A stretch of DNA of 53,734 nucleotides from Alphaproteobacteria bacterium (GTDB lineage: Bacteria > Pseudomonadota > Alphaproteobacteria > Rhodospirillales > Rhodospirillaceae). The stretch spans positions 1 through 53,734 of the forward strand of contig JAURPI010000034.1 in NCBI GenBank assembly GCA_030835385.1. The letters are read 5' to 3'. The notes beneath the pieces are model-generated. The model ran no database searches, was not told where the DNA came from, and saw only the letters and a list, made by a program, of their open reading frames with translations. Positions 14,874 through 48,916 of this stretch are shown here, piece by piece (the first letter of the stretch is position 1; the number at the start of each line of letters is the position of its first letter). The translations under genes were made by a program, and so were the position numbers.

Positions 14874-15528
14874 ATGGCCGAAGACGATCGAAAAAAATGA
14901 GAAACTCATTGAAGCCAAAGAGAATTGGGCTCGCGACGGCCGCGCACTAACGGGACAAACAGCAGACAGCACGCGCAGTCGGTTGCCCCCAGGGCAACGT
15001 TTGGTCAAAGACTTCCCCGTACTGGATTTAGGGCCTCAGCCTAATATGCTGCCACGAGACTGGGCATTGTCGACCGCGGGGCAAATCAATCGACCGATCA
15101 AATGGTCGTTCAACGATTTAATGGCTCAGCCCCAGGTGGAAATTACGAGTGATATTCATTGTGTGACAACGTGGTCTCGCTATGACAATCGCTGGAAAGG
15201 CGTTTCTGCTAAGCACCTTCTTGTGGAAGTGCAACCGCGGGAGAACCCAGCATTTCTAATGATTGGGAGCTATGACGGATATGCGACGAACGTCCCGCTG
15301 TCTTGGGTCGACGACGACGATGTCTTATTAGCCCACACGTGGAATGGCGCACCTTTGACGCGTGAGCATGGTGGGCCGGTTCGGCTCGTGATACCCAAGT
15401 TATACTTTTGGAAATCAACGAAATGGATTCGACACATCACGTTTATGGAGGGTGATGCGCCTGGATACTGGGAAGCACGCGGCTATCATGCAGTCGGCGA
15501 TCCATGGAAAGGGCAGCGATACGGTTAG
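14874..15528 (+). pseudogene. Sulfite-oxidase-like molybdopterin protein, interrupted by a +1 frameshift at codon 8
   Basis: The cofactor domain is clear: RDWALSTAGQ, then SDIHCVTTWSRYDNRWKGV with the molybdenum-ligand Cys, NVPLSWVDDDDVLLAH and GGPVRLVIPKLYFWKSTKWI (sulfite-oxidase/nitrate-reductase Moco domain; cytosolic COG2041 type, oxidative role unknown). The frame is open from 14875 but has no ATG or GTG near the family N-terminus; the only start is TTG 14983, inside the conserved part. An ATG at 14874, 2 bases after smpB, reads MAEDDRKK and then hits TGA at 14898 directly after an A7 run (14891-14897). Removing one base there joins it to EKLIEAKENWARDGRALTGQ, the normal family start. 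So this is a one-base insertion, a sequencing error, or a recoding site. Predicted intact length 217. Confidence 0.75.
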
Positions 15529-16550
15529 GATACGGTACCTTCTATGATCGACATTGTAGAAGGGGCGGGAGTCGGGAGTATGCGAAGGAGTTGCAGTCCC
15601 GCTTTAGAGAATAGAGTTTCAAAATCTTCTGCTGTTCTTTCTCGGCCTTCTAGCAATGTCATAATCCCAACATCGAGATATTTGTTAGGGTCCGCGTCAT
15701 TCCCAGGATTGAGAACCGCGTCAACAACTGCGACCCGTGAGTCCGGTGACATGGCCGCTCGCACGCTCTTTAATATGCGTATGGCATCAGCATCGCTCCA
15801 GTCGTGAAGAATGCGTTTAAGAAGATAGACATCTCCGTCTGGGTGAACAGCTTCGAAAAAATCTCCAGAGACCAGTTTGCATCGCTCCAACATCCCTGCG
15901 TCACTTAAATAGGTTGGTTCGGCGATAACCTGCTGTTGGTCAAATAGCACTCCAGACAAAGTTTGATGGTCAGAAAGAATGGCGGCAAGAAGGCCACCGC
16001 GACCGCCGCCAACATCAACCACGACCTTGGCATCGCCGAAAGGATAGCTGCTGGAAATAACGCTGTTCTCTGGCCCCGAAATGAGCGCCATCGAAGCGTC
16101 AAACAGTGCGCCCAGGTCTTCCTCGGCTTCCAAATGCTCAAAAAAGGGACGACCATGAGCGATCGCAAAGGCGGGCTTCCCATTGTGTATCGCTTCTGGC
16201 ATCGCTCGATAGGTGTCCCAGACGACATCTTGCCAGGCTAGCCGAACCATTGGTCTCAATGACCCTGGCACTCCTTCGCGTAAGACGTCGGATGCAGGCG
16301 TATTTCTGAACGTGCCATCCTGTTCCTGATGAAATATGTCGATAGACGCCAGAAAGCGCATCATTCTGAAGAGAGAGGGCGCGTGGGCATTGCAAACGTT
16401 TGCGAGTTCCTCCGCTCTCATCGGACGTTGGTCGAGGTGATCAGCCAGGCCTAGTTCAGCTGCAATACCGATACATCTCGCTGAGAGGATTTGTCCCGTA
16501 ATTCGCAGAATCGTTCACTGAGCCGAGGCCGTGTCTGTTGAGTGGTCCAT
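15525..16550 (-). pseudogene. SAM-dependent O-methyltransferase with in-frame TGA at codon 12
   Basis: Reading the minus strand from ATG 16550 gives MDHSTDTASAQ, then TGA (16515-16517), then in the same frame TILRITGQILSARCIGIAAE, leading without a break into LGLADHL and RAEELANVC. That is the N-terminal dimerisation region of plant/bacterial Methyltransf_2 O-methyltransferases, so the stop is internal. The SAM site VVVDVGGGRGGLLAAIL and the catalytic His of LLKRILHDWSDAD are intact. Without readthrough, translation could restart at ATG 16421 and yield 298 residues lacking the first dimer helices. Other genes here end in TGA, so it is a real stop. The 3' end overlaps the previous gene by 4 bases, convergent. 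Substrate unknown. Confidence 0.75.
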
Positions 16551-16644
16551 AATATGCCCGGTTTCTAAAGCTACACTTGCCACATGGAGTTTGATTCGAG
16601 AAACTATGGATTGAAATAGAAATCGAACAGGGAAGGCATCCAAA

Positions 16645-17196
16645 ATGAAACGTCGCAGTCTAATTGCCGCACTTATTGCAGCAACTGTTTCACTCGCTGG
16701 AGGAAACCAGGCCATGGCAGAAACGGCGCATGATTTTACTTTTGATTCTATTGATGGTGGTGCCTTACCTCTATCGCAGTACGAGGGAAAAGCTGTTCTT
16801 GTCGTCAATACGGCTTCATTCTGCGGCTACACCCCTCAGTATGAAGGCCTTCAGAGTTTGTGGAGTGAATACAAAGATAAGGGGCTAGTTGTTCTTGGTG
16901 TGCCGTCCAATGACTTTGGAGCACAGGAGCCGGGAACCGCAGAAGAAATCAAAGATTTCTGTGAAGCCAATTTTGATGTCGACTTTCCGCTTACGGCTAA
17001 AGAGGTTGTGAAGGGTGGTGGCGCGCATTCGTTTTACAAATGGGCAGCTGCAGAAAAAGGGGCAGAAAATGCTCCGAGATGGAATTTCCATAAGTATCTG
17101 GTCGCACCGAATGGGTCGCTCGTGAATGCGTTTCCCAGCCGAGTAGAACCAATGAGCAAAGAGCTAGTGAGTGCAGTGGAAGCCGTACTCCCATAG
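16645..17196 (+). CDS. Secreted (periplasmic) glutathione peroxidase family protein
   Basis: 183 residues with a signal peptide (MKRRSLIAALIAATVSLAGG, predicted cut after AMA, residue ~25). The thioredoxin-like fold carries the peroxidatic Cys60 in NTASFCGYTPQY, the Gln in PSNDFGAQEPG and the Trp-Asn pair in RWNFHKYLV, so the catalytic tetrad is complete. A second Cys in DFCEANF can resolve the oxidised enzyme through thioredoxin, as in non-seleno bacterial enzymes. It reduces H2O2 or lipid hydroperoxides, here most likely in the periplasm, where the source of electrons is not evident. Convergent with the UDG gene, stops 8 bases apart. Confidence 0.9.
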   Translation: MKRRSLIAALIAATVSLAGGNQAMAETAHDFTFDSIDGGALPLSQYEGKAVLVVNTASFCGYTPQYEGLQSLWSEYKDKGLVVLGVPSNDFGAQEPGTAEEIKDFCEANFDVDFPLTAKEVVKGGGAHSFYKWAAAEKGAENAPRWNFHKYLVAPNGSLVNAFPSRVEPMSKELVSAVEAVLP

Positions 17197-17203
17197 GCCA
17201 ATT

Positions 17204-17833
17204 CTAGGATATTGCCTTAAACACGTCCTCAAACATCTTGGGTGTTAAACGCCGAGTGTTAAGGTTGTACCGAGAGCAGTGGTAGCTGTCAGCGAGGGTG
17301 CGTCCATCAGGCAGTGTGTGCCGCGCTGCATGACCAAAAGAGTAGTCTGATTTCTTTAGTCCTAAAGTTGTGATCACCGCATCATGCGCGATCCGCCCAA
17401 GGGCCATGATCGTCTTGAGTTTCGGGAGGTTGGCAAACTCGTCGACCAAGAACGAGCGGCAATTTTTTTGTTCGGCACCGATGGGTTTGTTTTGAGGAGG
17501 GACGCAACGTACCGCATTGGTGATCCGGCACTTTTTCATTTTCAATCCATCATCAGGAGATTGACCATAGGTCCCAGTTGCCCAGCCAAATTTAAGGAGA
17601 GTTGGGTAGAGTAGGTCTCCAGCGTAATCGCCTGTAAATGGCCTGCCCGTTCGGTTTGCTCCTTGAAGGCCCGGCGCTAAACCAACCACGAGTAGCGTGC
17701 AATCTGTGGGACCGAATGCAGGTACAGGGGCGTTAAACCATTCAGGATGTGCATCTTGATTCGCGCGCCGGAACTCGACCAAGCGGGGACATTTATCGCA
17801 ATCTCGCGGTGGATCGGCGGGAGCATGTGACAT
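17204..17833 (-). CDS. Family 5 uracil-DNA glycosylase (UDGb), iron-sulfur type
   Basis: Removes uracil (and, in known UDGb enzymes, some other deaminated bases) from DNA. 209 residues. Motif 1 GLAPGLQGANRTGRPFTGD is diagnostic for family 5 rather than family 4, which has GExPG and an acidic residue. Cysteines at 12 and 15 (DCDKCPRL) with two further ones (KKCRITNAVRC, KNCRSF) match the [4Fe-4S] ligands. The C-terminal SYHCSRYN segment corresponds to motif 3 with its His. Start ATG 17833. The gene stands alone on the minus strand, with folK divergent 75 bases away. Confidence 0.9.
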   Translation of the reverse strand: MSHAPADPPRDCDKCPRLVEFRRANQDAHPEWFNAPVPAFGPTDCTLLVVGLAPGLQGANRTGRPFTGDYAGDLLYPTLLKFGWATGTYGQSPDDGLKMKKCRITNAVRCVPPQNKPIGAEQKNCRSFLVDEFANLPKLKTIMALGRIAHDAVITTLGLKKSDYSFGHAARHTLPDGRTLADSYHCSRYNLNTRRLTPKMFEDVFKAIS

Positions 17834-17908
17834 TATAGGACTTCAAAGTCGTTATACTTCTAGCTTTATAGCCGCTTCGGACTTGAGTGCAACAAGGGGG
17901 CAAACTCT

Positions 17909-18394
17909 GTGATCGTTATCGCATTAGGCGCGAACTTGCCCAGCAGGGTGGGTCAGCCATTGCAAACATTGCAGGCCGTGGTTCGTGAACTGCCTAAGTG
18001 CGGCATAAAGGTTGCGGCGGTTTCACAATGGTATGAATCAAAGCCGGTACCGGCTTCAGATCAGCCGCTCTACATAAATGGGGTGATCAGCGTTGAAACG
18101 ACTCTTGGCCCCTCTGACCTCTTAAGTACCTTGCTCTCTATTGAGGATGACTACGGGCGAGAACGGCGAGAAGCCAACGCGGCGAGAACACTCGACCTTG
18201 ATGTCTTAGATTACGATGGGAAAGTCGAGACAGGACCTCCAATTCTGCCCCACCCGAGGCTGGAAAATCGACGCTTTGTCTTATTCCCGCTGCGCGATAT
18301 TGCGCCAGATTGGCGGCACCCAGTCTCCGGCCTCCAGCTTGAGGCTCTACTCAAGAACCTGGAAGATCCGGGCAAAATTCGGCAGATTAAATAG
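17909..18394 (+). CDS. folK: 2-amino-4-hydroxy-6-hydroxymethyldihydropteridine pyrophosphokinase
   Basis: Transfers pyrophosphate from ATP to the pterin in folate synthesis. 161 residues from GTG 17909, with AAGGGGGC 9 bases upstream. HPPK signature: IALGANLPSR at the N-terminus; YESKPVPASDQPLYINGV; and the R-x-x-R-T-L-D-L-D catalytic element as AARTLDLDVLDYDG, whose Asp pair binds two Mg2+; then LPHPRLENRRFVLFPLRDI. Followed by a 165-base gap and rpoZ; the folK-rpoZ-rel order is usual in alphaproteobacteria. Confidence 0.94.
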   Translation: MIVIALGANLPSRVGQPLQTLQAVVRELPKCGIKVAAVSQWYESKPVPASDQPLYINGVISVETTLGPSDLLSTLLSIEDDYGRERREANAARTLDLDVLDYDGKVETGPPILPHPRLENRRFVLFPLRDIAPDWRHPVSGLQLEALLKNLEDPGKIRQIK

Positions 18395-18559
18395 GTTCTG
18401 CGGTCTCAAATGACCGTTTAGACCTAAAAAACCTTGTTTTTCTGCCCCTATCTCACTAAACACAGGGCAAATCTAAGTTCTTTGGCTGCGGATTATGGCC
18501 AGTTGCCGGTACATTTGGCGACAAGGTTGATCCCAGCAACACCATGACAGGAACCCGGT

Positions 18560-18988
18560 ATGGCTCGCGTCACTGTTGAAGATTGCGTTGATAAGGTTAG
18601 AAATCGCTTTGAGTTGGTCGTTGTGGCCTCGCAGCGTTCTAGAGAAATTTCTGCTGGCGGTGAGCCGTTACTCGAACGTAAGAACGACAAAAACCCGGTA
18701 ATTGCGTTACGCGAAATCGCGGAAGAAAAGGTAGCTCCTGAAGAGTTGGTCAATGGCGTTATCCAAGGAATGCAGCGTCATGTTGAGGTCGACGAACCAG
18801 AAGAAGATGGTTTTGACGCGATTGCCGACGGTCGTACTTTGACTGACGGCACGCAGGATTACACGGATGAGACGGCCGCAGCGTCGGGTATGACCATTGA
18901 GAGTTCAGATGGTGATGATCCGCACCCACAGGTCAGTTATGAAGACGTGACAAGTGAGGAAGTGGGCGCTTTCCAAAAAGGCGGCTAA
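18560..18988 (+). CDS. rpoZ: RNA polymerase omega subunit
   Basis: Assembly subunit of RNA polymerase that wraps beta-prime; together with rel it belongs to the stringent-response neighbourhood. 142 residues, longer than E. coli omega (91) because of an acidic C-terminal tail (about 80-142) that is common in alphaproteobacteria. Core: [31 protein letters not shown], and [14 protein letters not shown], the omega helix signature. ATG 18560 has CAGGA upstream. A terminator follows at 19013, so it is separated from rel. Confidence 0.94.
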
Positions 18989-19012
18989 CGTTTCGTACTT
19001 TTAAGAGAATTT

Positions 19013-19046
19013 AACCGCGCCCAGGGCTCCTGCGGCGCGGTTTTTC
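19013..19046 (+). terminator. Rho-independent terminator after rpoZ
   Basis: aaccgcgcc (19013-19021) pairs with ggcgcggtt (19034-19042), a 9-base stem with a 12-base loop, running into a T-rich stretch (ttttctttg). It begins 25 bases after the rpoZ stop and ends before the rel gene. Confidence 0.88.
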
Positions 19047-19117
19047 TTTGTTCAGTAGTCTTTAACGGGTCCTGCTGTGATAGTATCTCCTTGAAAACAA
19101 CAGGAGGTTTCGCCCGG

Positions 19118-21259
19118 ATGTTGCGCCAGTTCGAACTGGTTGAACGTGTGAAGTCCTATGATCCGAAAGCGGACGAGGACGCGATCAATCGCGCCTACGT
19201 TTACGCAATGAAGATGCATGGCTCGCAAATGCGGGCGTCGGGGGATCCCTATTTCTCTCATCCCATCGAAGTAGCCGGTATTCTTACAAACTATCGGCTT
19301 GATACGGCTTCTATTGTAACGGCCCTTCTGCATGACACGGTCGAAGACACCGGCGCGACTACGGAAGAGATCACTAATTTGTTTGGCGATGAAGTCGGAC
19401 GCCTGGTTGATGGCGTCACGAAGCTGACTCGCATCCAACTTCAGAATGTTGAAGCGAAACAGGCAGAGAATTTCCGCAAGCTATTACTGGCCATGTCAGA
19501 GGACATCCGTGTTCTTCTCGTGAAGCTGGCCGACCGGTTGCATAACATGCGAACCCTTAATCACATCTCTAAACCTGATAAGCGACGCAACATTGCCCTT
19601 GAGACGATGGAAATTTATGCCCCATTAGCTGAACGACTGGGGATGCAGGAAATAAAGACGGAGCTGGAAGATCTGGCGTTTGCAGAGCTTCACCCAGAGG
19701 CTCGTGCTTCAATACTCACACGTCTCAGGTTTCTTGAGCGGGAAGGCGGCGATCTGGTCGGTCGCATCATGGATGAGCTTGATCACACGATTCAGGCGGC
19801 GGAACTGACTGGTTTTGTGTCTGGTCGTGAAAAGACACCGTTTTCGATTTGGAAAAAGATGCAGATTAAGGATGTTAGCTTCGAACAGCTCTCAGACATC
19901 ATGGCATTCCGGGTGATGGTCGATGATAACGAGGACTGCTATCGAGCACTGGGTGTTATCCATGCGGCCTACAGAACTGTGCCCGGCCGGTTTAAAGACT
20001 ATATCTCTACTCCTAAGCGCAACGGGTACCAGTCGATCCACACTGGCGTTATCGGGCCTGAGAAACATCGCATCGAAGTCCAAATCCGTACAAATCGTAT
20101 GCATGAAATTGCGGAGCTCGGTGTTGCCGCCCACTGGCACTATAAGACAGGTTTGGAAGATTTAGCCGGAAGCCAATACAGCTGGCTGCGCGAACTGTTA
20201 GATATTCTTGAACATGCTCAGTCTCCAGAAGAGTTTCTGGAGCATACAAAACTGGAAATGTTCCAAGACCAGGTCTTTTGTTTCACGCCCAAAGGGGAGT
20301 TGATCAACTTACCTAGAGGCGCCAGCCCGGTTGACTTCGCCTACGCGGTTCATACTGAGGTAGGGAATACGTGCGTCGGTACAAAGGTGAATGGGCGCAT
20401 CGTCCCATTGCGCATTGAACTTAATACCGGTGACCAGGTTGAGATTGTGACGTCGAAGGCACAAAAACCGTCGCCAGAGTGGGAAGGCTTTGTGGTTACC
20501 GGTAAGGCGCGTGCCCATATCCGGCGACGTGTTCGTAGCGAAGCGCACGAAGAATACGCCAAACTGGGCAAAGAAATTCTGCTTAAGTCCTTTGCCAAAG
20601 AAGGTTACGACCTAACAGACGATGGCCTCAAAGAGGCCTGTGACAAGCTCGATTTGCCAAGCCCAGATGACATTTACGCGGCTGTGGGCGAAGGCGAGGT
20701 AATGGCGCGACAGGTTCTTGAGGCGATTTATCCTGGAGCTAAAGCAAGTCTGCTAACCAAAGTTGTAAATATTTCTAAGGCACGGAAGAAGAACGCTAAA
20801 TCTACAGAAAGTGCAGTTCCTATTAAAGGGCTGACTCCTGGGCTGGCGTTGCATCTGTCAGAGTGCTGCCATCCGTTACCTGGAGATCGTATTGTGGGTA
20901 TCTTGACGGCAGGTAAAGGGGTCGACGTTCACACCATCGATTGTGAATCGTTGATCGAATTATCAGATGAGCCGGAGAGTTGGCTTGATATCGTATGGGA
21001 CGATAAAAAAACCGGCGATATGCTTATGGGCCGAGTTAACCTGGTCGTTCTAAATGAGCCGGGCAGCCTAAGCGCCCTGTCGACCGTGATCGCTCAAAAC
21101 CAAGGAAACATTTCAAATTTGAAAATTGTTGGTCGATCAAATGATTTCTTCGAAATGGACCTCGACATTGAAGTGACAAGCGTTAAACACTTAACCAACA
21201 TCATTGCTGCTCTTAGGGCCTCTCCTGCTATTAATTCAGTAGAGCGAGCTCGCGGGTAG
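19118..21259 (+). CDS. Bifunctional (p)ppGpp synthetase/hydrolase (Rel/SpoT, Rsh)
   Basis: Makes and degrades the alarmone (p)ppGpp. 713 residues from ATG 19118; AGGAGG at 19102-19107 decides for it over the TTG at 19091. Domains: HD hydrolase (about 30-170, with FSHPIEVAGIL and LLHDTVEDTG), synthetase (about 230-350, with GRFKDYISTPKRNGYQSIHT and EVQIRTNRMHEIAE), TGS (about 385-445, VFCFTPKGELINLPRGAS), and the C-terminal zinc-finger-like Cys region (HLSECCHPLPGDRIVG) plus ACT (about 640-710). Both catalytic halves look intact, as expected for the single Rsh of most alphaproteobacteria. Called relA or spoT in databases; the bifunctional name rel/rsh fits better. Confidence 0.95.
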   Translation: MLRQFELVERVKSYDPKADEDAINRAYVYAMKMHGSQMRASGDPYFSHPIEVAGILTNYRLDTASIVTALLHDTVEDTGATTEEITNLFGDEVGRLVDGVTKLTRIQLQNVEAKQAENFRKLLLAMSEDIRVLLVKLADRLHNMRTLNHISKPDKRRNIALETMEIYAPLAERLGMQEIKTELEDLAFAELHPEARASILTRLRFLEREGGDLVGRIMDELDHTIQAAELTGFVSGREKTPFSIWKKMQIKDVSFEQLSDIMAFRVMVDDNEDCYRALGVIHAAYRTVPGRFKDYISTPKRNGYQSIHTGVIGPEKHRIEVQIRTNRMHEIAELGVAAHWHYKTGLEDLAGSQYSWLRELLDILEHAQSPEEFLEHTKLEMFQDQVFCFTPKGELINLPRGASPVDFAYAVHTEVGNTCVGTKVNGRIVPLRIELNTGDQVEIVTSKAQKPSPEWEGFVVTGKARAHIRRRVRSEAHEEYAKLGKEILLKSFAKEGYDLTDDGLKEACDKLDLPSPDDIYAAVGEGEVMARQVLEAIYPGAKASLLTKVVNISKARKKNAKSTESAVPIKGLTPGLALHLSECCHPLPGDRIVGILTAGKGVDVHTIDCESLIELSDEPESWLDIVWDDKKTGDMLMGRVNLVVLNEPGSLSALSTVIAQNQGNISNLKIVGRSNDFFEMDLDIEVTSVKHLTNIIAALRASPAINSVERARG

Positions 21260-21273
21260 GAGTTTCGGTTTCT

Positions 21274-21852
21274 ATGTTTCGGCGCCGCACACAGCCCAGC
21301 GCATTCAATTTAGTTCAGGTGTTTTTATGCCCTAAGTCTGGGTGTACGAGGGCGGGACAGTACTTATGGCACCGTCTGCATAGGTTGCCCGGCACGCCAC
21401 ACTCTATCGCCGCCGGTTTAGCTTGTGGCTCAGCAATGTCCGTCACCCCTTTTGTTGGTGTTCACTTCTTCATGGCCGGTGCATTGGCTTGGCTGATGCG
21501 TGGCAACGTCCTCGCCTCTGCCTTCGGAACCGTGATTGGTAATCCCTGGACTTTTCCCGTTATTTGGTTGACGACCTACTACCTCGGAAATTTTATACTT
21601 GGGAATGGCTTTGCCGTTACAGATTCCGCGTTTAGTTTTTCCGACATGTTTAGCGGCTTGATTCGATCAATGATTGAAGCCGATGGCGCCTTGTTTATAG
21701 ATCGTGTGTGGCCCGTATGGTGGCCAATGATTGTCGGTAGTATACCGTCCGCTCTTTTAACCTGGATTATAGTCTACTCGGTCTTCTACAAGTTGGTTGA
21801 CGTTTATCAGACGCGCCGCGCTGCTAAATCCATAGATGGTGAGCAAATATGA
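21274..21852 (+). CDS. DUF2062 integral membrane protein
   Basis: 192 residues with at least three hydrophobic segments: about 48-75 ([18 protein letters not shown]...), 82-103 and 148-172. The sequence [20 protein letters not shown] followed by TPFVGVH and [14 protein letters not shown] is characteristic of DUF2062, a family of unknown function often found between rel and pdxJ in alphaproteobacteria. The N-terminal 40 residues are basic and cytosolic. ATG 21274 follows TAGGAG at 21256-21261. Its last 4 bases overlap pdxJ, so expression is coupled with PLP and acyl-carrier genes. Confidence 0.88.
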
Positions 21853-23029: not shown

Positions 23030-23046
23030 TCTAACAAGGCTGTAGG

Positions 23047-23075
23047 TTGACAGTTCGTAGGCGGGCCGGTTTTAT
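23047..23075 (+). promoter_or_regulatory. Candidate sigma-70-type promoter for lepB-rnc-era
   Basis: TTGACA at 23047-23052, 17 bases, then TTTTAT at 23070-23075 (four of six consensus bases). It lies about 90 bases upstream of the chosen lepB start. A ggcgg/ccgcc inverted repeat (23060-23064 and 23076-23080) overlaps it. Prediction by eye only. Confidence 0.4.
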
Positions 23076-23164
23076 CCGCCAACCCCGTATGGTTATTGGA
23101 ACCTCGGTGGTTTTTGTTCGTTTCTATTAGGGTGTCCAGTATCGTGTCAGAAAATTCAGGGGCC

Positions 23165-23899: not shown

Positions 23900-23907
23900 C
23901 GACCGGT

Positions 23908-26480: not shown

Positions 26481-27059
26481 TTAACGGACGCAGCCGAATA
26501 CGGTGGTTGAAGAAACTGAATCGCTTCGCGCAAGTGGCGCTGCAACGGTGGCTGTGCAACTTCCGCTTCCCATAAAGTAGGAGGCGATGTTCTGTTGATA
26601 CGCGCTATACGTTTTTTGTGCGTAGAAGGGAAAATTGCCAACCCATTCATAGTCGTCAGTCATATTTGAGAAGCCGGTTCCGATCTGGCATGCGACTTTA
26701 AATTCTGCTGGCTCGCGAAGACGTGTGCCGTCATCCAAACACTTTTGGCGAGCGTCTTCGAATTCAAGTGCTCCCGCGGTATGTTCTTCCTCATACATAC
26801 AAAAGCCGAAATCCACACTGTTGGAGTTTGTGTAAATTTTCACGAACACTTCGGTCGTGGCGTTGCAATCGTCTCGATGAGGCGTAAAGGGTCGCAGTCC
26901 GGACATGGCTTGAGTCCACATATCGGTGCCTTGTCCAGCGACACCTACGCAGTAGCCGCGACGAGGATTTTGCGCATTGGCGTCTGTTGAGGCCGCGATG
27001 AGGAATGTCATCACGGTCAGCACACTAAGTAGTCTGCTTATTGTGGTTTCGGGAATCAT
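26481..27059 (-). CDS. Secreted protein with formylglycine-enzyme/C-type-lectin-like segment, function unknown
   Basis: 192 residues. ATG 27059 has a strong TAGGAGGGA site 7 bases upstream, so it is a real gene. Signal peptide: LLSVLTVMTFLIAASTDANA, likely cut at residue ~29. The middle reads CMYEEE ... EDARQKCLDDGTRLREPAEF followed by KVACQ and YEWVGN, and the end is TTVFGCVR. This resembles the 'A..C...G.RL.T.AEWE.AC' core and GFRCVR end of FGE-sulfatase (SUMF-like) or C-type-lectin folds, but it is short and shows no catalytic cysteine pair I can assign. Seven or more cysteines suggest disulfides in the periplasm or outside. Monocistronic, divergent from parC by 275 bases. Role unknown. 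Confidence 0.6.
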   Translation of the reverse strand: MIPETTISRLLSVLTVMTFLIAASTDANAQNPRRGYCVGVAGQGTDMWTQAMSGLRPFTPHRDDCNATTEVFVKIYTNSNSVDFGFCMYEEEHTAGALEFEDARQKCLDDGTRLREPAEFKVACQIGTGFSNMTDDYEWVGNFPFYAQKTYSAYQQNIASYFMGSGSCTATVAAPLARSDSVSSTTVFGCVR

Positions 27060-29734: not shown

Positions 29735-30229
29735 ATGAGACTCAGATTCGGTACTGCGGCCATAGTAGCGCTGTTCATGACGCTGCCGATGAGTACGCGC
29801 GCTCAAGAGCAAAATACGGCTCAACCGATATTTACTTCCACGCCGACGGTCTTGTTACGCTCTCCCGATCCGATCAAACTTGCAGAGTTCTATAAAGCTT
29901 TGGGAATGAAGGTTGCGAGAGTTTCCGAGCGGGGGAGCACATTCATTTACCTTGAGGGCAATGCAGGGTCCTTGGAGATCCTAAAAATGGATCCAAACAC
30001 CCAGCCTGACGGACCAAAAACCTCTCGCACCCAGCAAGGCCTCGTCGTCATTTTTGAGACGACCCATGTTGATGAGGTGGTTCGACGGGCAAGAGAGGCG
30101 GGCAGTCCGATGGTCGAGAAATGGACGTCGTCACAGGCCGACATATCGATCTATTACATAGCTGACTGGGAAAATAACATTTTTGGGTATGCGCCCCGGT
30201 ACCATAACCCCAATATTAATGTGCCTTAG
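29735..30229 (+). CDS. Secreted VOC (glyoxalase/bleomycin-resistance fold) protein
   Basis: 164 residues with a clear signal peptide (MRLRFGTAAIVALFMTLPMS, cut near TRA, residue ~23) and one vicinal-oxygen-chelate domain (about 33-155): TPTVLLRSPDPIKLAEFYKA, GSTFIYLEGNAGSLEILKM, and WENNIFGYAPRYHN at the place of the usual 'DPDGNxIEL' strand. One acidic metal ligand (SLEIL) is kept, but the usual N-terminal His/Gln and the last Glu are not evident, so metal binding may be altered. Most VOC proteins are cytosolic; a secreted one suggests binding or conversion of an exported or imported compound. It lies 220 bases before a TonB receptor on the same strand. Substrate unknown. Confidence 0.75.
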   Translation: MRLRFGTAAIVALFMTLPMSTRAQEQNTAQPIFTSTPTVLLRSPDPIKLAEFYKALGMKVARVSERGSTFIYLEGNAGSLEILKMDPNTQPDGPKTSRTQQGLVVIFETTHVDEVVRRAREAGSPMVEKWTSSQADISIYYIADWENNIFGYAPRYHNPNINVP

Positions 30230-33531: not shown

Positions 33532-34526
33532 CTATATTTTGTGCGGCTTAGAGTGGGGCTGGCGCGGCGCTGCGGGTTCGAGGAAATCAGGAAGGCGATC
33601 GAATGCGGCTGCTGTCGATCCGTCAGCCCTCAGCAGTACAATGCTGATCCGTCTGTTTTGAGGGCGCCTGGATCATCTTCCAGAAGCGGTTCATTTGCTG
33701 CTTGCCCTGTAACTTTGGCGACCCGTTTCTCGGTAACTCCGACATCCTCCAATGTCCTGCCTGTGGCGAGCGCACTGTCTGCACTGAGTACCTAGTTGCT
33801 GTATCCAGATGGGTCAGTAAATGGTGTGGCGTCTGTATGGCCCGACATACTTAATTGGGCAATCTGTTTATTACTCGGGCAACGAGACCCATGATTTCTC
33901 GGGTGTAGCCGTGCATGGCGGTGCTACCCGACGGAAAGAGCGGTAAACCGTCTTGGTCAACGATTTGAATGCGCAGGCCCTCAGGCGTGTTATCGATGAG
34001 CAGGCTATCAGCCAGCTCTGACAACTCAGGAATCCCTTGGATCAGGCGTTCCAGTTCATCTGCAGCCTGTTCGAACTGTGCTTCTTCACGCGCCCGCATG
34101 GCTTCCTCGATATCTTCTTCCGTCGGATCGCGGGAGAGTCCTTCGCCGGGGTCAGTTAAATCTTCGCCGCCTTATCCAACAGTGGGTGGCGGAAGCGAGG
34201 TGACGGTAACAAGCCCCAGTCTGGCTTTCTTGGGCGCCTTCGCCAACCGTTAGGCCGCCGAGGAGACCGCCGGCGCCACTTTGGCTGTTGGATGCTGCAA
34301 TAGGCGTAAAGTAGTGGGAAATACCGTTGAGTTGTTCCTCTGTGACCGCGTTGAGCAACCACAACAACAGGAAAAATGGCATCATGGCGGTTACGCAATC
34401 AGCATAGGCGACTTTCCAGGCACCGCCGTGGTGCCCATGCTCGCCTTTGTTGATGCGTTTCACGATGATGACGTTGCCGCCACCGCCTGCATCACCACCA
34501 CCGCCAAAATCAAGGCGATCCGGCAT
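33532..34526 (-). pseudogene. motB: motB remnant (flagellar stator subunit B), multiply broken
   Basis: Minus-strand reading needs three frames to restore one MotB. Frame 1 from ATG 34526: HGHHGGAWKVAYADCVTAMM, then FFLLLWLLNAVTEEQLNGIS; this is the stator membrane helix with the proton Asp, though intact MotB has YADFVTAMMAFF. A frame change near 34235 gives LGLVTVTSLPPPTVG then TAA (34172-34174), then GEDLTDPGEG and LLIDNTPEGLRIQIVDQDG. TAA at 33851 marks the next change: SGHTDATPFTDPSGYSN, TAG at 33792-33794, LSADSALA ... GVTEKRVAKVTGQAANEPLL. Near 33655 the frame changes again to NRRISIVLLRADGS and ends at TAG 33532. This is the OmpA-like peptidoglycan-binding domain. Three shifts plus two stops exclude function. 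No motA is adjacent. Confidence 0.92.
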
Positions 34527-37047: not shown

Positions 37048-37308
37048 GTGACGAATTCCTGGGATGATAAATTGAGCTACCTCTCAGCACCAGGGGGCTC
37101 TGGCGACGTTTATTTAAATGAGGTCCTTTTCGAAATCCATCAGGTCGGTAATTCTGTTCGGGTTTCAGAGATTGATCCACGCACAAATACAGAGGTTGTT
37201 GTCGTCGGCTCACCACACATGAGTCCGTATTCACTCAAGATCAATACAGTTCGTAAACTCAAGTACGTTATGGGCAAGAATCAAGCGGCAAGGCGGTCTA
37301 AGGGTTAG
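37048..37308 (+). CDS. DUF6898-like small conserved protein
   Basis: 86 residues from GTG 37048. The core (about 18-77) reads GDVYLNEVLFEIHQVGNSVR, VSEIDPRTNTEVVVVGSPH and LKINTVRKLKYVM. This is the compact alphaproteobacterial family with a 'FE.VR.G..V.V.A.DP.TGTEV.VVGP' strand pattern, sometimes mislabelled serine hydroxymethyltransferase because it lies near glyA; I take it to be DUF6898. No catalytic residues are known. It is divergent from the acylase gene by 73 bases and its end overlaps the flippase fragment by 11 bases on the opposite strand. Confidence 0.65.
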   Translation: MTNSWDDKLSYLSAPGGSGDVYLNEVLFEIHQVGNSVRVSEIDPRTNTEVVVVGSPHMSPYSLKINTVRKLKYVMGKNQAARRSKG

Positions 37309-37576
37309 TGCTATCGACTCTTGTATTTGTGACTTTGGTCAACGGCGTGCGGACAAAAACGAAGAATAGCAATGTGTTTGCCAAAAGCGCGGCTACAACT
37401 GATGTAAGGGCAATGCCTTCTAGCTCAAAGTGCTCTTGCATGCTCGTGACGAACATCAAATACGTTGTGATGGCAAAAAGGCTACCGAATACATTCATTG
37501 ATGGACGCATATAGGTGAGAGGAATCTCAACCAACTGTATTGCAGAGTTGACCCAGCACCCGATGGACAGAATCAT
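37298..37576 (-). pseudogene. C-terminal fragment of an oligosaccharide flippase-like membrane protein
   Basis: 92 residues if ATG 37576 is used (AGGCGG upstream), with about three hydrophobic segments. The pattern ILSIGCWVNSA, then ~43 residues, then ELEGIALTSVVAALLANTLL matches, by motif and spacing, the end of Wzx/MATE-like oligosaccharide flippases ('ILxxGQxVN ... FGIEGAALATxIA'). The same frame stays open upstream without a start codon (FFGLAKEFTL, like the 'LFGxEF' loop) to a TGA near 37658. Full flippases have 400-500 residues, so this would be a remnant. It could instead be a small 3-helix membrane protein expressed from ATG 37576. Confidence 0.4.
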
Positions 37577-38008
37577 GAAAAACCGCCTGCGCTTAGATCG
37601 GGGTAATGTGAACTCTTTCGCCAGACCGAAAAACCTACAGGTCCTGGCTACTCAGCCAAGATTTTCTTCGGGGTTGCAGCCGCTATTTGTAGAAACTGAC
37701 TGATTAGCTCATCCGATGAGGCGCTAATGGCATGAACCGCAATGAAAGTTCCTGCCAGTGTCTCAATTAAGAAAGGAAATCTCATTCTTGCCCTCACACT
37801 CTTGGTAGGCGGGAACAATAAGCCCCTGTAATTCAGACAGAACCGACGGCGATAGACCTCGATAGGTGGGGTATCGACTGGACCGTCTCATCTACCGAGT
37901 TATGTCACCAAAGGGCTAGTGGTCCATTGGCAAGCCGTGTCCATATGTGGTATCCGATACTCTATCAGCGAGCGCAAGGAGTCTGCGGCTAAAGCAGGCG
38001 ATTCCAGG
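37577..38008. other. Gap between flippase fragment and rpiB; no certain gene
   Basis: 432 bases. The minus strand holds one short frame (37648-37785, listed separately) and the upstream open extension of the flippase fragment. The plus strand is open from 37919 into rpiB, but those codons precede the real start. The rpiB promoter should be in 37800-38000; I cannot pick one. Confidence 0.4.
37648..37785 (-). CDS. Possible small ORF or decayed flippase segment (45 residues)
   Basis: ATG 37785 with GAGGG five bases upstream, TAG at 37648. The peptide starts MRFPFLIETLAGTFIAVHAI and ends TPKKILAE. A TFIA ... DELISQFLQIAA pattern could be an earlier part of the same flippase (the loop between two helices), but spacing to the downstream fragment is too short unless bases were lost. 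The frame is also open upstream of the ATG for about 40 codons. Either a relic or a chance frame. Confidence 0.2.
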   Translation of the reverse strand: MRFPFLIETLAGTFIAVHAISASSDELISQFLQIAAATPKKILAE

Positions 38009-38470: not shown

Positions 38471-38519
38471 GCGAGATGCAAAGCGCCTCGCTCACACTAT
38501 TTGAAAGGGTTTCTAACCG

Positions 38520-39803: not shown

Positions 39804-39824
39804 CCGGCTCAAGGGAGGGGAACC

Positions 39825-41413: not shown

Positions 41414-41415
41414 GT

Positions 41416-42006: not shown

Positions 42007-42013
42007 GACGATT

Positions 42014-43126: not shown

Positions 43127-43132
43127 CGGCTC

Positions 43133-43594
43133 ATGACAGACACCCCGCATATCGCTCTTATAGAAGCTCGGTTTTATGAAGATATTTCTGATCAGCTTGC
43201 GGCCGGGGCACTAGCTGTGATTGAAGCGGCGGGTGGCACGGTGCACCGCATCTCTGTGCCAGGAATTCTCGAAATACCGGCTGCTTTGCAGTTTGCTATT
43301 GAGGGTAACGGGAATCCTGAATCCGGTCGCATGTTTGATGGAGGAGTTGCGCTCGGCTGCGCCATCAAAGGTGAGACCGATCACTATGAGTATGTTTGCG
43401 GAGAATCTATGCGCGGCACACAGGACGTTGCTTTGGCCCACGCATTTCCGGTCGGTAACGGAATTCTGACCTGTCCGACGCGGGCATTAGCTGAGGAACG
43501 CGCAGATGTTGACCGTAAAAACTTTGGCGGAAAGGCAGCAGAAGCATGCTTAAGGCTGATCAATATCAAAACAGAGCTTGGCGTTGAACCATGA
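43133..43594 (+). CDS. ribH: 6,7-dimethyl-8-ribityllumazine synthase
   Basis: Condenses the RibB product with the pyrimidine from RibD. 153 residues forming an icosahedral or pentameric shell in relatives. IALIEARFYEDISDQLAAGA at the start, VPGILEIPAAL, GCAIKGETDHYEYVCGESMR (substrate loop, with the catalytic His in TDHYEY), and ADVDRKNFGGKAAEACLRL at the end. ATG 43133; four-base overlap with nusB. Confidence 0.95.
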   Translation: MTDTPHIALIEARFYEDISDQLAAGALAVIEAAGGTVHRISVPGILEIPAALQFAIEGNGNPESGRMFDGGVALGCAIKGETDHYEYVCGESMRGTQDVALAHAFPVGNGILTCPTRALAEERADVDRKNFGGKAAEACLRLINIKTELGVEP

Positions 43595-44109
43595 CACGGT
43601 TGACGCCACCCACAAGTGAACAATCAGGGAATGGGCGTAGTACAGCCCGCCTTGCTACCGTGCAGGCGCTGTATCAAGTCGCCGCTACAGAATCTGACTA
43701 CACCAAAGTGGTCCGTGATTTTCTAGCAGGCCGGCTCGGTGGGATGGCCATCAATGAAGACCCCGATACAGAGGCAGAAACTCACGTTCGGCTCGCCGAT
43801 ATGGATCAAGGCATGTTTTCAGGGCTGGTTGGCGAGACCATCGCTCGCCAGGATGATATTGACGAGATGATCAATGCGAACCTTAGCGATGATTGGCCTA
43901 AAGAGCGGCTCGAATTAATAGTGCGGTCTATACTTCGGGCCGCCATCGCAGAGTTACTTGGTGCAGTTGCCGCACCAGCCAAAGTCACAATCTCTGAGTA
44001 TGTCGACATAACACACGCCTTCTATAGTGGGCCTGAGCCTAAGATGGTGAACGCGGTTTTAGATAAAGTCGCACGGGTGCTGCATAGCAAAGACTTAGCG
44101 GCGTCTTAA
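43591..44109 (+). CDS. nusB: Transcription antitermination factor NusB
   Basis: Binds boxA RNA with NusE to prevent premature termination of rRNA transcripts. 172 residues, all-alpha. RSTARLATVQALYQVAATES is the first helix with the conserved ARxxAxQALYQ pattern; the end reads RSILRAAIAELLGAV ... TISEYVDITHAFY ... PKMVNAVLDKVARVL. ATGA overlap with ribH, then thiL 19 bases on. The ribH-nusB-thiL order is widespread. Confidence 0.94.
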   Translation: MTRLTPPTSEQSGNGRSTARLATVQALYQVAATESDYTKVVRDFLAGRLGGMAINEDPDTEAETHVRLADMDQGMFSGLVGETIARQDDIDEMINANLSDDWPKERLELIVRSILRAAIAELLGAVAAPAKVTISEYVDITHAFYSGPEPKMVNAVLDKVARVLHSKDLAAS

Positions 44110-44128
44110 AGCAACCGGAGACCCAAGC

Positions 44129-45112
44129 ATGCCAGGTCTGTCGGAATTTGAATTGATCGATGCCCTGTTAAAACCGCTCGCCGAAAAGTCTGGCGGTGCA
44201 TTCTCTTTGTCTGATGACGCGGCACTCTTACCTGATCCACCTTCAGGATATGGACACGTTGTCACTAAGGACGCCCTTGCTGTGGGTATTCATATGCGTG
44301 CAGACGATCCGCCTGGCGACATGGCGCGGAAGGCATTGCGTGTAAATTTGTCAGACCTTGCTGCCATGGGAGCACACCCCGTCGGCTTTTTTATGGCGCT
44401 CTGTCTAGGCCCAGAAACGGATGAAACTTACTTACGGTATTTTGTCGAAGGCCTATCAGGCGACATTGAGACCTTCAATGTTCCACTAATGGGGGGGGAC
44501 ATCATCCGCCAGCAGGGTCCTTTTACAATTTCCATTACCGCAATTGGAGCAGTGCCAAAGGATGATTTATTGCGGCGAAGCGGCGCTCAACCGGGTGATG
44601 CGTTATGGGTCTCTGGGACGATCGGTGATGGCACGCTCGGCTTGTTGGTTGCCGACGGTCAAGGTCCAAAATTATCTGAGGCCGACAAGAGCGAGCTCAT
44701 AAAACGCTACCGCATTCCTGAACCACGGCTTGCTCTTGGAATAGGATTGGTCGGTATAGCTAACGCATGTATCGACGTTTCAGATGGACTAGTTTCAGAT
44801 GTTGGTCATCTGTGCGCAGCATCGTCGGTAGGGTGCAGTATCGCAGCCCCATCCGTTCCACTGTCGCCTGCCGCAGACGAGGCGCTAAAGATTGATTTTG
44901 AACTGATGCCTTCGGTGTTGACTGGCGGCGACGACTACGAACTGGCGTTTGCTGCCCCAAAACAGGCAGAAAAAGACATTAAAGACCTATCCACTGAAGT
45001 TGGAATCCCTGCAACTCGTATCGGATTTTTTGAGGCTGGCGAAGGTCTGTCTGTGATGGATCGCGCTGGAAAGGCTATGAACTTCACGAGTGCTGGATAC
45101 CGACACGCATGA
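44129..45112 (+). CDS. thiL: Thiamine-monophosphate kinase
   Basis: Phosphorylates thiamine monophosphate to the diphosphate, the cofactor of E1 of the PDH complex in this window. 327 residues of the PurM-like ATP-binding fold: SLSDDAALLPDPP (Mg2+ Asp residues), KALRVNLSDLAAMGAHPVGF, PLMGGDIIRQQGPFTISITA, CIDVSDGLVSDVGHLC (second Asp cluster) and TGGDDYELAF. Starts at ATG 44129. Confidence 0.95.
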   Translation: MPGLSEFELIDALLKPLAEKSGGAFSLSDDAALLPDPPSGYGHVVTKDALAVGIHMRADDPPGDMARKALRVNLSDLAAMGAHPVGFFMALCLGPETDETYLRYFVEGLSGDIETFNVPLMGGDIIRQQGPFTISITAIGAVPKDDLLRRSGAQPGDALWVSGTIGDGTLGLLVADGQGPKLSEADKSELIKRYRIPEPRLALGIGLVGIANACIDVSDGLVSDVGHLCAASSVGCSIAAPSVPLSPAADEALKIDFELMPSVLTGGDDYELAFAAPKQAEKDIKDLSTEVGIPATRIGFFEAGEGLSVMDRAGKAMNFTSAGYRHA

Positions 45113-45216
45113 ACGACCTTCTTGAATCCAAGGTAGATCGAATGCTATGGAATAGTGAGTCCGATCAAATTGTATGAGAGATTTACGTGAGCGGTTATTC
45201 GTTGCAGGGATAGACC

Positions 45217-45705
45217 ATGAAACGCATGGCTGTCATTGTCATGGTTTTGCTGCTGGTCTTAGGAAGCGGGCTTGCCGGTCTCATGGTTATCGGCGTGATT
45301 CCAACCCCCCTAGCGGATCCTGCAGAAGAAACGGCCGAGGACGAAGGTAACGCAGGTGGCATGGCCGCAGGGAAGTCTGGCTTTACTCCCCCAGAACGGG
45401 CTCCAATGCTCTATCCGCTAGAGGATATCGTGATCCCGGTCATTGTTGACGCTCGGGTCATTAAGCGAATTTACATCACGGCCAGAATGGCAATTGCTCA
45501 GGGGCAGCGAACACCCGTTGAATATGGCCTCCCGCGGATGGAAAGCGCAGTGAATGACCGTCTGGTGGTCTATTTTCAGAACCATTTCGCCAAACGACGG
45601 AGACCAGCTGTCCGTGACATAAAGCGGGAATTGGTTACTGCTGCGGACCAGGTGTACGGCGACATGATTAACGATTTCCTCCTTATCACCGTGTTTGAGC
45701 AATAG
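45217..45705 (+). CDS. FliL-like single-pass membrane protein
   Basis: 162 residues. N-terminal membrane helix about 4-28 (MAVIVMVLLLVLGSGLAGLM), an acidic Gly-rich spacer (AEETAEDEGNAGGMAAGK), then a periplasmic domain with strands YPLEDIVIPVIVDARVIKRI and YITARMAIAQGQRTPVEYGL, helix MESAVNDRLVVYF, and DMINDFLLITVFEQ at the C-terminus. The layout (TM, linker, 'x.vNl' strand, C-terminal 'V..VLFTxFVxQ') matches FliL, the stator-associated protein of flagellar motors. It has kept its frame, while motB 11 kb away is broken. It stands between thiL and hppA, not among flagellar genes. FliL membership is by pattern, not certain. Confidence 0.5.
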   Translation: MKRMAVIVMVLLLVLGSGLAGLMVIGVIPTPLADPAEETAEDEGNAGGMAAGKSGFTPPERAPMLYPLEDIVIPVIVDARVIKRIYITARMAIAQGQRTPVEYGLPRMESAVNDRLVVYFQNHFAKRRRPAVRDIKRELVTAADQVYGDMINDFLLITVFEQ

Positions 45706-45913
45706 GTCGAAAGCGCTCTAACCGGCTTAGAACTTGGGTTTTTCGGTCTGTTCTCCTGACTCCGCTGTTGCGCCATCCCCGCCATTCTGGCACCCTCCGC
45801 GCGCTTTCCCGGGCGGGGAAGTGACTAAGAACCTATCTCATTGATCCACAAGGGGTTTTCTGGGTCGAACGGCTGATAATTCCAGCCTCATCAACGAATC
45901 GAATGGAACGAGC

Positions 45914-47995
45914 ATGAGCACTCTCGAATATTTTGTCCTGGGAAGTGGCGTAATCGCCATCCTTTATGGGATTTTTACCACGCGCAGCCTTATGGCAGTG
46001 GGAACCGGTACGGACCGGATGGCTGAAATTGCAGCGGCAATCCAGGAAGGCGCTGCGGCATACCTGAACCGTCAATACACGACGATTGGTATCGTCGGAG
46101 TCATTGTTACCATCGCCTTAGTGCTAACGCTTGGCATGCTGTCAGCGGTTGGCTTTGTTATCGGTGCGGTATGCTCCGGCATTGCCGGCTATGTCGGGAT
46201 GAACGTTTCAGTTCGGGCCAATGTGCGGACGGCTGAAGCCGCTCGTTCAACCGGAATGTCTGCCGCACACGCGGTGGCTTTCAAGTCAGGCGGCGTGACG
46301 GGCATGTTGGTCGTTGGGCTCGGCTTATTGGCAGTTGGTGGTTACTACTTCGCTCTGCTCGGCATGGGCACAGATGACCGCAAACTCATCGAAGCATTGA
46401 TTGCGTTGTCATTCGGGGCCTCTCTCATTTCAATCTTCGCCCGCCTTGGTGGTGGCATCTTTACTAAGGGTGCTGATGTTGGTGGCGACTTGGTCGGTAA
46501 GGTAGAAGCAGGCATTCCCGAGGATGATCCGCGTAACCCAGCGACCATTGCTGACAACGTTGGTGATAACGTCGGCGATTGTGCCGGTATGGCAGCGGAC
46601 TTGTTCGAGACCTATGCTGTAACAGTTGTCGCGACCATGCTGCTCGGTACGATCTTCTTCGACGGAACTTCTCAAGCAACTGTGATGCTTTATCCGTTAG
46701 TTATTGGTGGCGTGTGCATCATCGGTTCGATCATCGGCACATTTTTTACCGGCGTCAAAGAGGGCGGCAAGGTTATGAGCGCCTTGTATCGCGGCTTTAT
46801 TGTTTGCGCTGTTATTTCTGCTGCTTTGATTGTTGTTGTTACTAACATGATGTTCGAAGCAGACGTCGCGATGACGGATGGCACGATGATTACGGGTGGC
46901 CAAATGATCACATGCGCCGTCATTGGTCTTGTTGTCACAGGCGTCATTATTTGGATCACAGAGTACTACACTGGTACGGATTATCGTCCGGTGAAGAGTG
47001 TTGCTGAATCTTCGACCACAGGCCACGGCACTAACGTGATCCAAGGCTTAGCGGTCTCGATGGAGGCTACGGCGCTTCCTGTTCTGTTGATCTCCGCAGC
47101 TATCATTGCAGCGTTCTTGCAAGCCGGTCTCTTCGGGATTGCGATTTCTGCAACCACAATGTTGGCGTTAGCTGGAATGGTTGTTGCCCTCGATGCCTAT
47201 GGTCCGGTTACGGACAATGCGGGTGGTATCGCTGAGATGGCTGAATTGCCAGAGGCTGTGCGGACCATAACTGATACTCTAGATGCTGTCGGTAACACGA
47301 CTAAGGCCGTAACCAAGGGCTACGCGATCGGCTCAGCGGGTTTGGCCTCCTTGGTGCTGTTTGCAGCATATACGTCTGACTTGGAGTTCTACTTCCCTGA
47401 ATTTGCGGGTATCGAATTTTCATTGAAGGATCCGTATGTCGTCATTGGTCTGTTTATCGGTGGCATGCTGCCTTACCTGTTTGCTTCTATGGGCATGCAA
47501 GCCGTTGGTCGGGCAGGTGGCGCGGTCGTCGTTGAAGTTCGCCGTCAGTTCAAAGAGAAACCCGGCATCATGCAAGGCACAGAGCGGCCTGAATACGGTG
47601 TTCTCGTTGATATGCTGACCAAAGCAGCGATCAAAGAAATGGTTCTACCGTCTTTGTTGCCGGTTCTTGCTCCGATCGCTTTGTACTTCATCATCACCTT
47701 CACTGCTGGTCAGGCCCAAGGCTTTGTTGCTCTTGGGGCGATGTTGCTAGGCACCATTGTGACCGGTTTGTTCGTCGCGATTTCGATGACATCTGGTGGC
47801 GGTGCGTGGGACAATGCCAAAAAGTACATTGAAGACGGCAACTACGGCGGCAAAGGTTCGGAAGCTCATAAGGCTGCCGTAACCGGCGATACAGTTGGCG
47901 ACCCGTATAAAGACACAGCTGGTCCAGCGGTGAATCCGATGATCAAAATCATCAACATCGTTGCCATCCTGTTGTTGGCGATGCTAGCCGGCTAA
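45914..47995 (+). CDS. hppA: Membrane-bound proton-translocating pyrophosphatase, K+-independent type
   Basis: Hydrolyses pyrophosphate and pumps protons outward across the inner membrane. 693 residues, about 16 membrane segments. Pyrophosphate-binding motifs: [20 protein letters not shown] followed by [21 protein letters not shown], and [20 protein letters not shown]; near the end [20 protein letters not shown]. At residues ~460-469 it has [11 protein letters not shown]; Lys (not Ala) after GNTT together with Thr three residues later marks the K+-independent class, as in Rhodospirillum rubrum. 208 bases of leader precede ATG 45914. Ends in a terminator. Confidence 0.96.
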
Positions 47996-48031
47996 ATGGT
48001 CGCTTTCTACGACCTAGAAAAACATCTGGAG

Positions 48032-48064
48032 CGGCCCGCATCAATGGTGCGGGCCGTTTTTTTT
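48032..48064 (+). terminator. Rho-independent terminator after hppA
   Basis: cggcccgca (48032-48040) pairs with tgcgggccg (48048-48056), nine perfect pairs around tcaatgg, followed by an 8-base T-run. 37 bases after the hppA stop. Confidence 0.93.
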
Positions 48065-48094
48065 GTCGTTTCAGGTTTGTTCATAGGGTGCGGT

Positions 48095-48916
48095 ATGACG
48101 AGCGTCGAGCCCAGTAAACTTTGTTGGGTGGCTTCATACCCAAAATAAGGGAACACCTGCCTTCGGTTTATGATCGCCGGCCCTTTTAGGGGCGCCGGAA
48201 TTACGTCAGCTGACATAGATACATTGATTCCAGATACTCACGAAATGGCGAGAAAAGGTTCTTTCAATCTCACAGAGGCACTGGGATCAGAGTTTTTCGT
48301 CAAAACACATTGGATGTTCGCCCAGTCTAATTCGGCTTTTTCTAGAGAAAACGTTTGCATATATGTTTTGCGTAACCCGATGGATGTTCTCGCCTCTCAT
48401 CTCAATTTCACGCAATTTCCCAATCCAGAACTGCGACCCGGTTTTATTGAGAATTTTATTGAAAAGGGCGGGTCACCGCTGTGGTTTGCTCACGGGATCG
48501 GCAGTTGGTTCGAGAATGCTATGAGCTGGATTAATGGTCCGACACGCTGTTTGGTTCTCATTTATGAGGCCTTATTGCGTGACCCAGTTTCAGAGACCGT
48601 ACGACTAGCAAATTTTCTCAATGTAGAGATATCGTTAGGTCAAGTTGAAGAGTTGGTTCGTCAATTTCAATTCGATGAACTTCGCAAACAGGAATCAATG
48701 GAGCGATCTAGTGCAGAAGAGGGGCTGTTCGTAAATTATTCGGCGTCGCGTGATGGGGAGACATTTTTTATGAATCGAGGAAAAGAGAATTATTTCCGAG
48801 AGGTTATCCCCGAAAGCAGCGTCGAGAAGGGGCTTCAAGCTTTTAAGGCGCCTATGGCGCAAATTGAAGAGATGCTGGGCGGCAAAATTGAGAGTTGGTC
48901 TTTTTTATCAGACTGA
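48095..48916 (+). pseudogene. Sulfotransferase relic with a stop in the PAPS-binding loop
   Basis: From ATG 48095 the frame reads MTSVEPSKLCWVASYPK, then TAA at 48146-48148, then GNTCLRFMIAGPFRGAGI in the same frame. Functional sulfotransferases have WxxSYPKSGNTWLR at this place, the 5'-phosphosulfate loop; here the Ser codon is TAA and the Trp codon is Cys (TGC 48158-48160). The rest is open to 48916, with the 3'-phosphate motif YVLRNPMDVLASHLNF intact. Translation could restart at ATG 48170 and give 248 residues lacking the PAPS loop, which should be inactive. Predicted ancestral length 273. It would have sulfated an exported polysaccharide or other surface molecule; which one is unknown. 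Confidence 0.85.

Follow-up and report, generated by a model that had tools for sequence, protein, structure and literature searches.

The window analysed here is a 53,734-nucleotide contig (C23) of an alphaproteobacterial genome, G000 (3.28 Mb in 47 contigs, 99.58% complete, 2.31% contamination), and it carries five damaged genes: a relic of the flagellar stator gene motB, a remnant of a Wzx-type flippase, and broken genes for a sulfotransferase, an O-methyltransferase and a sulfite-oxidase-like protein. The cause of the damage is neither one event nor one theme. The explanation that we favour, and regard as fairly likely when taken as a whole, is several separate losses in an uncultivated lineage related to metagenome-assembled genomes (MAGs) labelled 'Rhodospirillaceae'. 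The flagellar gene cluster, on another contig, would have given way, through homologous recombination, to an old deletion allele from a sister lineage resembling the genome G010, after which motB, left without a function, would have begun to decay. A separate deletion of about 5.4 kb in the window's own lineage would have taken the genes for myo-inositol-phosphate synthase (MIPS), a cytidylyltransferase, a CDP-alcohol phosphotransferase, the flippase and a third LptF/LptG-type permease, and the sulfotransferase would have died both in the G000 lineage and in G010. The same flagellar cluster would have been deleted independently in other relatives, with flhF and flhG spared each time and held under purifying selection. 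Of most interest is a result from beyond the window, this repeated loss of the flagellum with flhF-flhG left in place.

Five lesions among open genes

The five damaged genes are as follows:

33562..34526, minus strand: motB relic; the plug region is unbroken and is followed by frame changes and two stops, and homology spans all 318 residues of intact MotB
37301..37579, minus strand: what is left of a Wzx-type flippase, the C-terminal 91 or so of 445-456 residues
48095..48916, plus strand: sulfotransferase, with TAA at 48146-48148; the downstream frame of 248 residues is open (start codon by our reading)
15525..16550, minus strand: O-methyltransferase of the Methyltransf_2 type, whose frame is open apart from a single TGA (16515-16517) that follows 11 codons
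14874..15528, plus strand: sulfite-oxidase-like gene of the Oxidored_molyb type, its frame broken once within approximately the first 10 codons; domain complete

For comparison, a search with the window's penicillin acylase yielded 25 loci, including those of five closely related MAGs, L001 (G010), L002 (G008), L003 (G007), L004 (G009) and L005 (G011); the genus also includes G006, and G014 comes from another genus of the same family. An unrooted tree of 24 proteins (8726 columns, LG+G4) pairs G000 with G010, followed by G008 and then by (G009,G011) and (G006,G014), every labelled node having 100% ultrafast bootstrap support; it omits three of the 27 chosen genes, for which members were missing, and G007, which is too fragmentary. 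Across the first 25 kb of the window, identity to G010 is 87.8%. As a measure of decay we counted changes in a genome's own protein at positions that are identical across relatives; eight intact genes of G000 have 52 of 2030 such positions changed (2.6%).

All five loci proved to be broken or truncated as the initial annotation had described, and its observation that core genes are spared also held. Compared with their G008 orthologues, none of 46 other window genes is broken (one is cut by the window end). The script that we used flagged three of them, omlA, tonB and dapA, which are counted as unbroken because all three stops precede the start codons (49497, 30408 and 13501); the FliL-like gene described below and a 192-residue gene at 26484, both open, stand outside this control set. 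The same script raised one flag in G010 (omlA, likewise in the upstream part) and none among 39 genes of G014; flags that were not inspected singly number 2 of 46 in G011, 2 of 41 in G006 and, in the frameshift-rich draft G009 (L120-L122, G009:C5), 21 of 39 core genes (Fisher p 1.4e-9). Since G009 offers a picture of noise, plain sequencing noise would be expected to leave a pattern different from that of the window. Patchy genes make up 17.7% of the compared coding letters and contain five of the five lesions, although the length-based p of about 2e-4 is only indicative, the patchy set having been picked after the data were seen.

Relaxed selection across the genome, through early host association or a bottleneck, would let all non-essential genes decay at random. 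Genome sizes in the genus do range from 4.0 to 2.9 Mb, and the two smallest, G010 and G011, lack a match to the MotB plug, as such relaxation would suggest. Yet dN/dS between G000 and G010 lies between 0.026 and 0.30 in all 26 genes compared, mostly below 0.15, and the non-core genes for a TonB receptor, penicillin acylase and the FliL-like protein are still open. The core of the lineage is under normal selection, and we consider random decay of this kind improbable.

Loss of the flagellum and the origin of its scar

Aligned with the intact 318-residue MotB of G008, the window's motB is homologous in four pieces, each in a changed frame, with two stops. The plug and transmembrane segment was recovered as an N-terminal fragment (PF13677, 62.4 bits), and the window holds no continuous MotB frame with an OmpA-like peptidoglycan-binding domain, which the G008 copy has (PF00691). 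Intact orthologues occupy the same place in G007, G008 and G009, and none is found there in G010 or G011. Conserved positions are changed at 19 of 251 sites in the window copy (7.6%), as against 52 of 2030 in the intact genes, which argues that motB is dead but young; intact motB copies have 1/252 (G007), 4/255 (G008) and 9/260 (G009) changed.

The relic appears to reflect a loss that affected the whole genome. A search for the MotB plug found only the window relic in G000, with no second MotB, and no match at all in G010 and G011. Across 11 searched genomes, flagellin was found in five (G006, G007, G012, G016 and G020), and FlhA scored above its cut-off in the same five and, truncated, in G008; G000 has neither. 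By our reading of the scores, none of the four MotA_ExbB matches in G000 falls in the score classes (approximately 86-92 and 50-58 bits) of the flagellate G006 and G007. The loss of motility suggested from the window alone is thus supported genome-wide, and the second functional flagellar genes that would have spoken against it were sought in G000 and not found. An early phase of gene loss, as had also been proposed, does not fit the flagellum: the cluster from fliF to flhA has already gone, leaving nothing but decayed scraps. One further gene in the window may be flagellar:

45217..45705, plus strand: FliL-like gene, still open here; broken in G010, with no match in the G011 stretch

This gene, which has no Pfam or NCBIfam match, we presume to be FliL.

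In flagellate G006 the cluster runs flhG, flhF, flhA, flbD, motA, fliN, fliH-like, fliG, fliF, several of these labels being our assumption from the sequences. G000 and G010 have a scar in common, made of FlhA residues 1-99 and 705-726, the same pieces of FlbD, and FliF residues 1 to about 96. The remaining scraps are different: FlhA 340-726 and FliF 2-35 in G008, FliF 2-242 in G009, FlhA about 631-725 in G011, and FliF 4-67 joined to FlbD 177-216 and 418-437 in G014. Although the G009 assembly is just 83% complete, the contig with its scar is 342 kb long. Because the scraps of G000/G010, G008 and G014 are not nested and G006 is flagellate, at least four deletions, and probably five, are needed to explain the six genomes that lost the flagellum. 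The G008 deletion is very recent, with 3 of 290 conserved positions changed in its scraps, and the scraps of G009 and G011 have decayed very unequally (8/152 against 30/75). Parallel loss of flagella from a motile ancestor is also described for Actinobacteria in PMC10746217, which lists FlhF among the components absent from later, still flagellate classes; here, by comparison, the losses are recent enough for breakpoints to be read, and FlhF and FlhG stay.

How G000 and G010 came to have one scar can be weighed in some detail. They are sister genomes, and in both of them FlhA, FlbD and FliF are broken at the same points and have left the same pieces, as would be expected if the flagellum was lost once in their ancestor and both inherited the scar. 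Yet the scar differs at only 48 of 1910 aligned bases (2.5%; 97.5% identical), whereas its flanks differ at 62 of 339 third codon positions (flhF) and at 89 of 337 (gene 14, beyond it), which leaves these positions 74-82% identical. Moreover, 71 of 284 conserved positions are changed in the scar relics of G000, compared with 19 of 251 in its own motB (Fisher p 6e-8). A loss before the split predicts the reverse in both respects, and we regard a single ancestral loss as unlikely. Because the scar is far more alike than its flanks, and motB far less decayed than the scar relics, an old deletion allele most likely entered the G000 lineage recently by homologous recombination, to judge by these comparisons of assembled sequence. 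Identity between the two genomes is also uneven in the way expected from exchange: it reaches 93% along parC and 91-95% across most of the TonB receptor. If this import took place, gene loss spread sideways like an allele.

Two side observations concern identity elsewhere. Between 27240 and 32500 (parC and much of the TonB receptor), the window is 91-95% identical to G010 in 500-bp bins, compared with approximately 88% elsewhere, and this may be a further recombination tract. In addition, recO at the end of a G010 contig (G010:C16, L098) is 79% identical to the G000 copy, against 91% for that of G008, a possible replacement in G010.

FlhF and FlhG in genomes without a flagellum

Six of the 11 searched genomes (G000, G008, G009, G010, G011 and G014) have neither flagellin nor a complete FlhA. 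In G000, flhF and flhG are nevertheless intact and conserved (L129, G000:C5:20000-36000, at 7237-9080). FlhF is full length and free of stops in all six, at 84-100% identity to the G000 copy, and FlhG adjoins it. Values of dN/dS are 0.095 for FlhF and 0.083 for FlhG between G000 and G010, and 0.055 and 0.119 between G009 and G011. The G000 FlhF scores 161.5 bits against TIGR03499 (cut-off 174.15), and its best match adjoins flhA in the flagellate genomes G006, G007, G012 and G016; FlhG resembles MinD, with a score below the cut-off. An FlhF-like match (E <1e-40) is present in 22 of 31 genomes, G000 included.

These data suggest that FlhF and FlhG form a two-gene polarity module that probably has a job without a flagellum. 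In the review PMC12826062, FlhF and FlhG are a switch for flagellar number and position, and the arrangement here is alike in that flhF-flhG adjoins flhA; the difference is that both are conserved in genomes without flagellin or a complete FlhA. In Campylobacter jejuni (PMC3228812), FlhG acts on cell division, a role outside the counting of flagella; its partners there are proteins of the flagellar motor and switch, and the locus here lacks the genes for them. A literature search, judged by the titles and abstract openings of its best matches, found no account of FlhF or FlhG kept after loss of the flagellum.

The joint claim, that in this family FlhF-FlhG acts at the cell pole as a module with a role of its own, apart from the flagellum, and that the window's lineage lost its flagellum by importing a relative's old scar, is one that we put forward tentatively, as somewhat doubtful in its entirety. 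Several points weigh against parts of our favoured explanation or against the count of losses behind it. G009 and G011 are sister genomes, and their scraps could stem from one deletion followed by unlike erosion. The direction of import, from a G010-like lineage into G000, is taken from the loss of motB and the broken FliL-like gene in G010, and not from a donor tree. Counts at conserved positions are no strict clock, and motB and the scar relics were scored on different reference genomes; the FliL-like gene, though open, has 10 of 96 such positions changed, and the intact motB of G006, on a long branch, 30 of 281. All lesions were judged from assembled sequence. For FlhG, the G010 protein is 13 codons shorter near its start, and 12 of 185 conserved positions are changed in G010 and 19 of 191 in G011, compared with 5 of 190 in G000; FlhF and FlhG thus show some relaxation in G010 and G011, and retention may be slow decay. 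Finally, 9 of the 31 genomes have no clear FlhF, and flagellar state is known only for other genomes.

These parallel losses point to a testable second role for two proteins that are usually treated as flagellar. They also make it possible to set the decay of motB against that of scar relics and of intact genes, and to ask whether recombination carries loss alleles from one lineage to another.

Surface functions and single lesions

The flippase remnant lies between an intact gene and a deletion junction:

37577..37906: deletion junction, where approximately 330 bp stand in place of approximately 5.4 kb of the relatives' DNA
37048..37305, plus strand: DUF6898 gene, intact, on the other side of the flippase remnant

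Between rpiB and the end of the flippase gene, G010 (L001) carries an LptF-like permease, MIPS, a cytidylyltransferase-like nucleotidyltransferase, a CDP-alcohol phosphotransferase and the rest of the flippase; at the junction the four other genes and most of the flippase are missing. The full Polysacc_synt domain is absent from the window's flippase, while the intact G010 protein matches PF13440 and PF01943. The fragment is the edge of a separate deletion of about 5.4 kb in the window's own lineage. Relics of the cluster inside the 330 bp were considered and rejected (best E 0.014 against the relatives' cluster), and searches of G000 with the cluster DNA and with MIPS found no relocated copy. 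MIPS is present in six of the 11 searched genomes (G006-G010 and G012) and missing in G000, G011, G014, G016 and G020. Because G011 keeps only pieces of the MIPS and CDP-alcohol genes, the inositol pathway was lost at least twice in the genus.

What the cluster made is suggested by its enzymes. The cytidylyltransferase-like protein has as top PDB matches, with E 1.7e-21, the enzymes IPCT (4jd0 and 2xme) and IPCT/DIPPS (4mnd), and the phosphotransferase a weak top match to AF2299 (4o6m; E 1e-4). The two enzymes thus resemble known CDP-inositol enzymes, but here they are encoded by separate genes beside MIPS, a Wzx-like flippase and an LptF-like permease. To our knowledge, no such inositol cluster has been described in this alphaproteobacterial group, and none was found in the literature by the titles or abstract openings of the best matches. 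The permease (L001 4042-5277), a third one of the LptF/LptG type, adjoins the inositol cluster in relatives; all six genus relatives searched have it, although the copies in G007 (divided between two contigs) and in the noisy G009 are fragmented, and only G000 has lost it. Loss of an essential lipopolysaccharide permease was rejected, since G000 keeps two LptF/G-type paralogues (43% and 27% identity). CpgD of Caulobacter, also an alphaproteobacterium, is an example of how this cytidylyltransferase family can contribute to an envelope lipid (PMC12275187). The lost cluster probably served the decoration of a surface lipid or glycan together with its export, and with the third permease it is a candidate surface-lipid pathway in this group.

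The window's sulfotransferase retains its domain downstream of the stop (PF00685, 66.3 bits, profile positions 65-253 of 255). The TAA at 48146-48148 falls inside what we take to be the 5'-phosphosulfate-binding loop, so that no intact loop is left in one frame. Only 3 of 31 genomes, G000 included, have a match (G000, G010 and, at a distant 25-31% identity, G020), and the G010 copy, in the same place and 71% identical as DNA, has many lesions. The gene is dead in both the G000 lineage and G010.

The initial annotation had read the sulfotransferase and flippase together as export of a sulfated glycan, and its view can be put as one adaptive switch to a non-motile way of life lacking that glycan. 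Motility and the flippase cluster are indeed both gone. Yet no link between sulfotransferase and flippase was found; they are about 10 kb apart, and in G008, G009, G010 and G011 no sulfation genes were seen beside the flippase, whose neighbours are inositol-phosphate genes and which belonged to that cluster by the LptF-like permease. Nor do the losses agree in age or spread: G010 has kept the flippase cluster intact, both genomes have a broken sulfotransferase, and the flagellar scar is old. The sulfated-glycan proposal is not supported by these findings, and a single switch is very improbable.

The remaining two lesions are different in kind. The O-methyltransferase has both of its domains (PF00891, 132.7 bits; PF08100, dimerisation, 46.3 bits, from profile position 12, after the stop), and the gene is open at the TGA site in G008 and G010. 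For the sulfite-oxidase-like gene, translation from the ATG at 14874 meets a stop after 8 codons, and a conserved frame from approximately 14893 carries the whole Oxidored_molyb domain (PF00174, 134.5 bits, profile 3-169 of 169); the protein falls short of the NCBIfam cut-offs for MsrP (54 bits against 207), SoxC (46.4 against 420), SorA (38.5 against 600) and SorT (35.5 against 570), and its gene is open throughout in G010 and G008. Of the molybdoenzyme decay proposed earlier, the frame break stands, but only the N-terminus is clipped, and MoaC, for cofactor synthesis, is present in all five genomes searched and intact in G000.

Both lesions would be single and very young, or sequence errors. 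No clear decay beyond the one lesion is seen in either gene, because conserved positions are changed at 4 of 138 sites in the sulfite-oxidase-like gene (6 of 138 in G010) and at 10 of 173 in the O-methyltransferase (9 of 173 in the open G010 copy). That these two genes are intact and were misread in sequencing or assembly, an explanation that does not extend to motB or the flippase deletion, fits both counts as well as the single lesion per gene, one of them in a run of A. On the other side, none of the 46 other genes is broken while the noisy G009 has 21 of 39 flagged, and the O-methyltransferase is slightly raised relative to the pooled intact genes (p 0.026, uncorrected). We put error at a little short of an even chance. 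Stop-codon recoding, considered for the two genes with a single in-frame stop, was rejected since the stops differ (TGA and TAA); no tRNA genes were found in the window, the genome's suppressor tRNAs not having been searched.

Two minor observations concern other genes of the window. The 192-residue protein at 26484-27059 has no confident Pfam family and, among seven relatives compared, a match only in G009. At 29735-30229 the window has one glyoxalase-like gene, of which G008 carries three tandem copies and G010 only a remnant.

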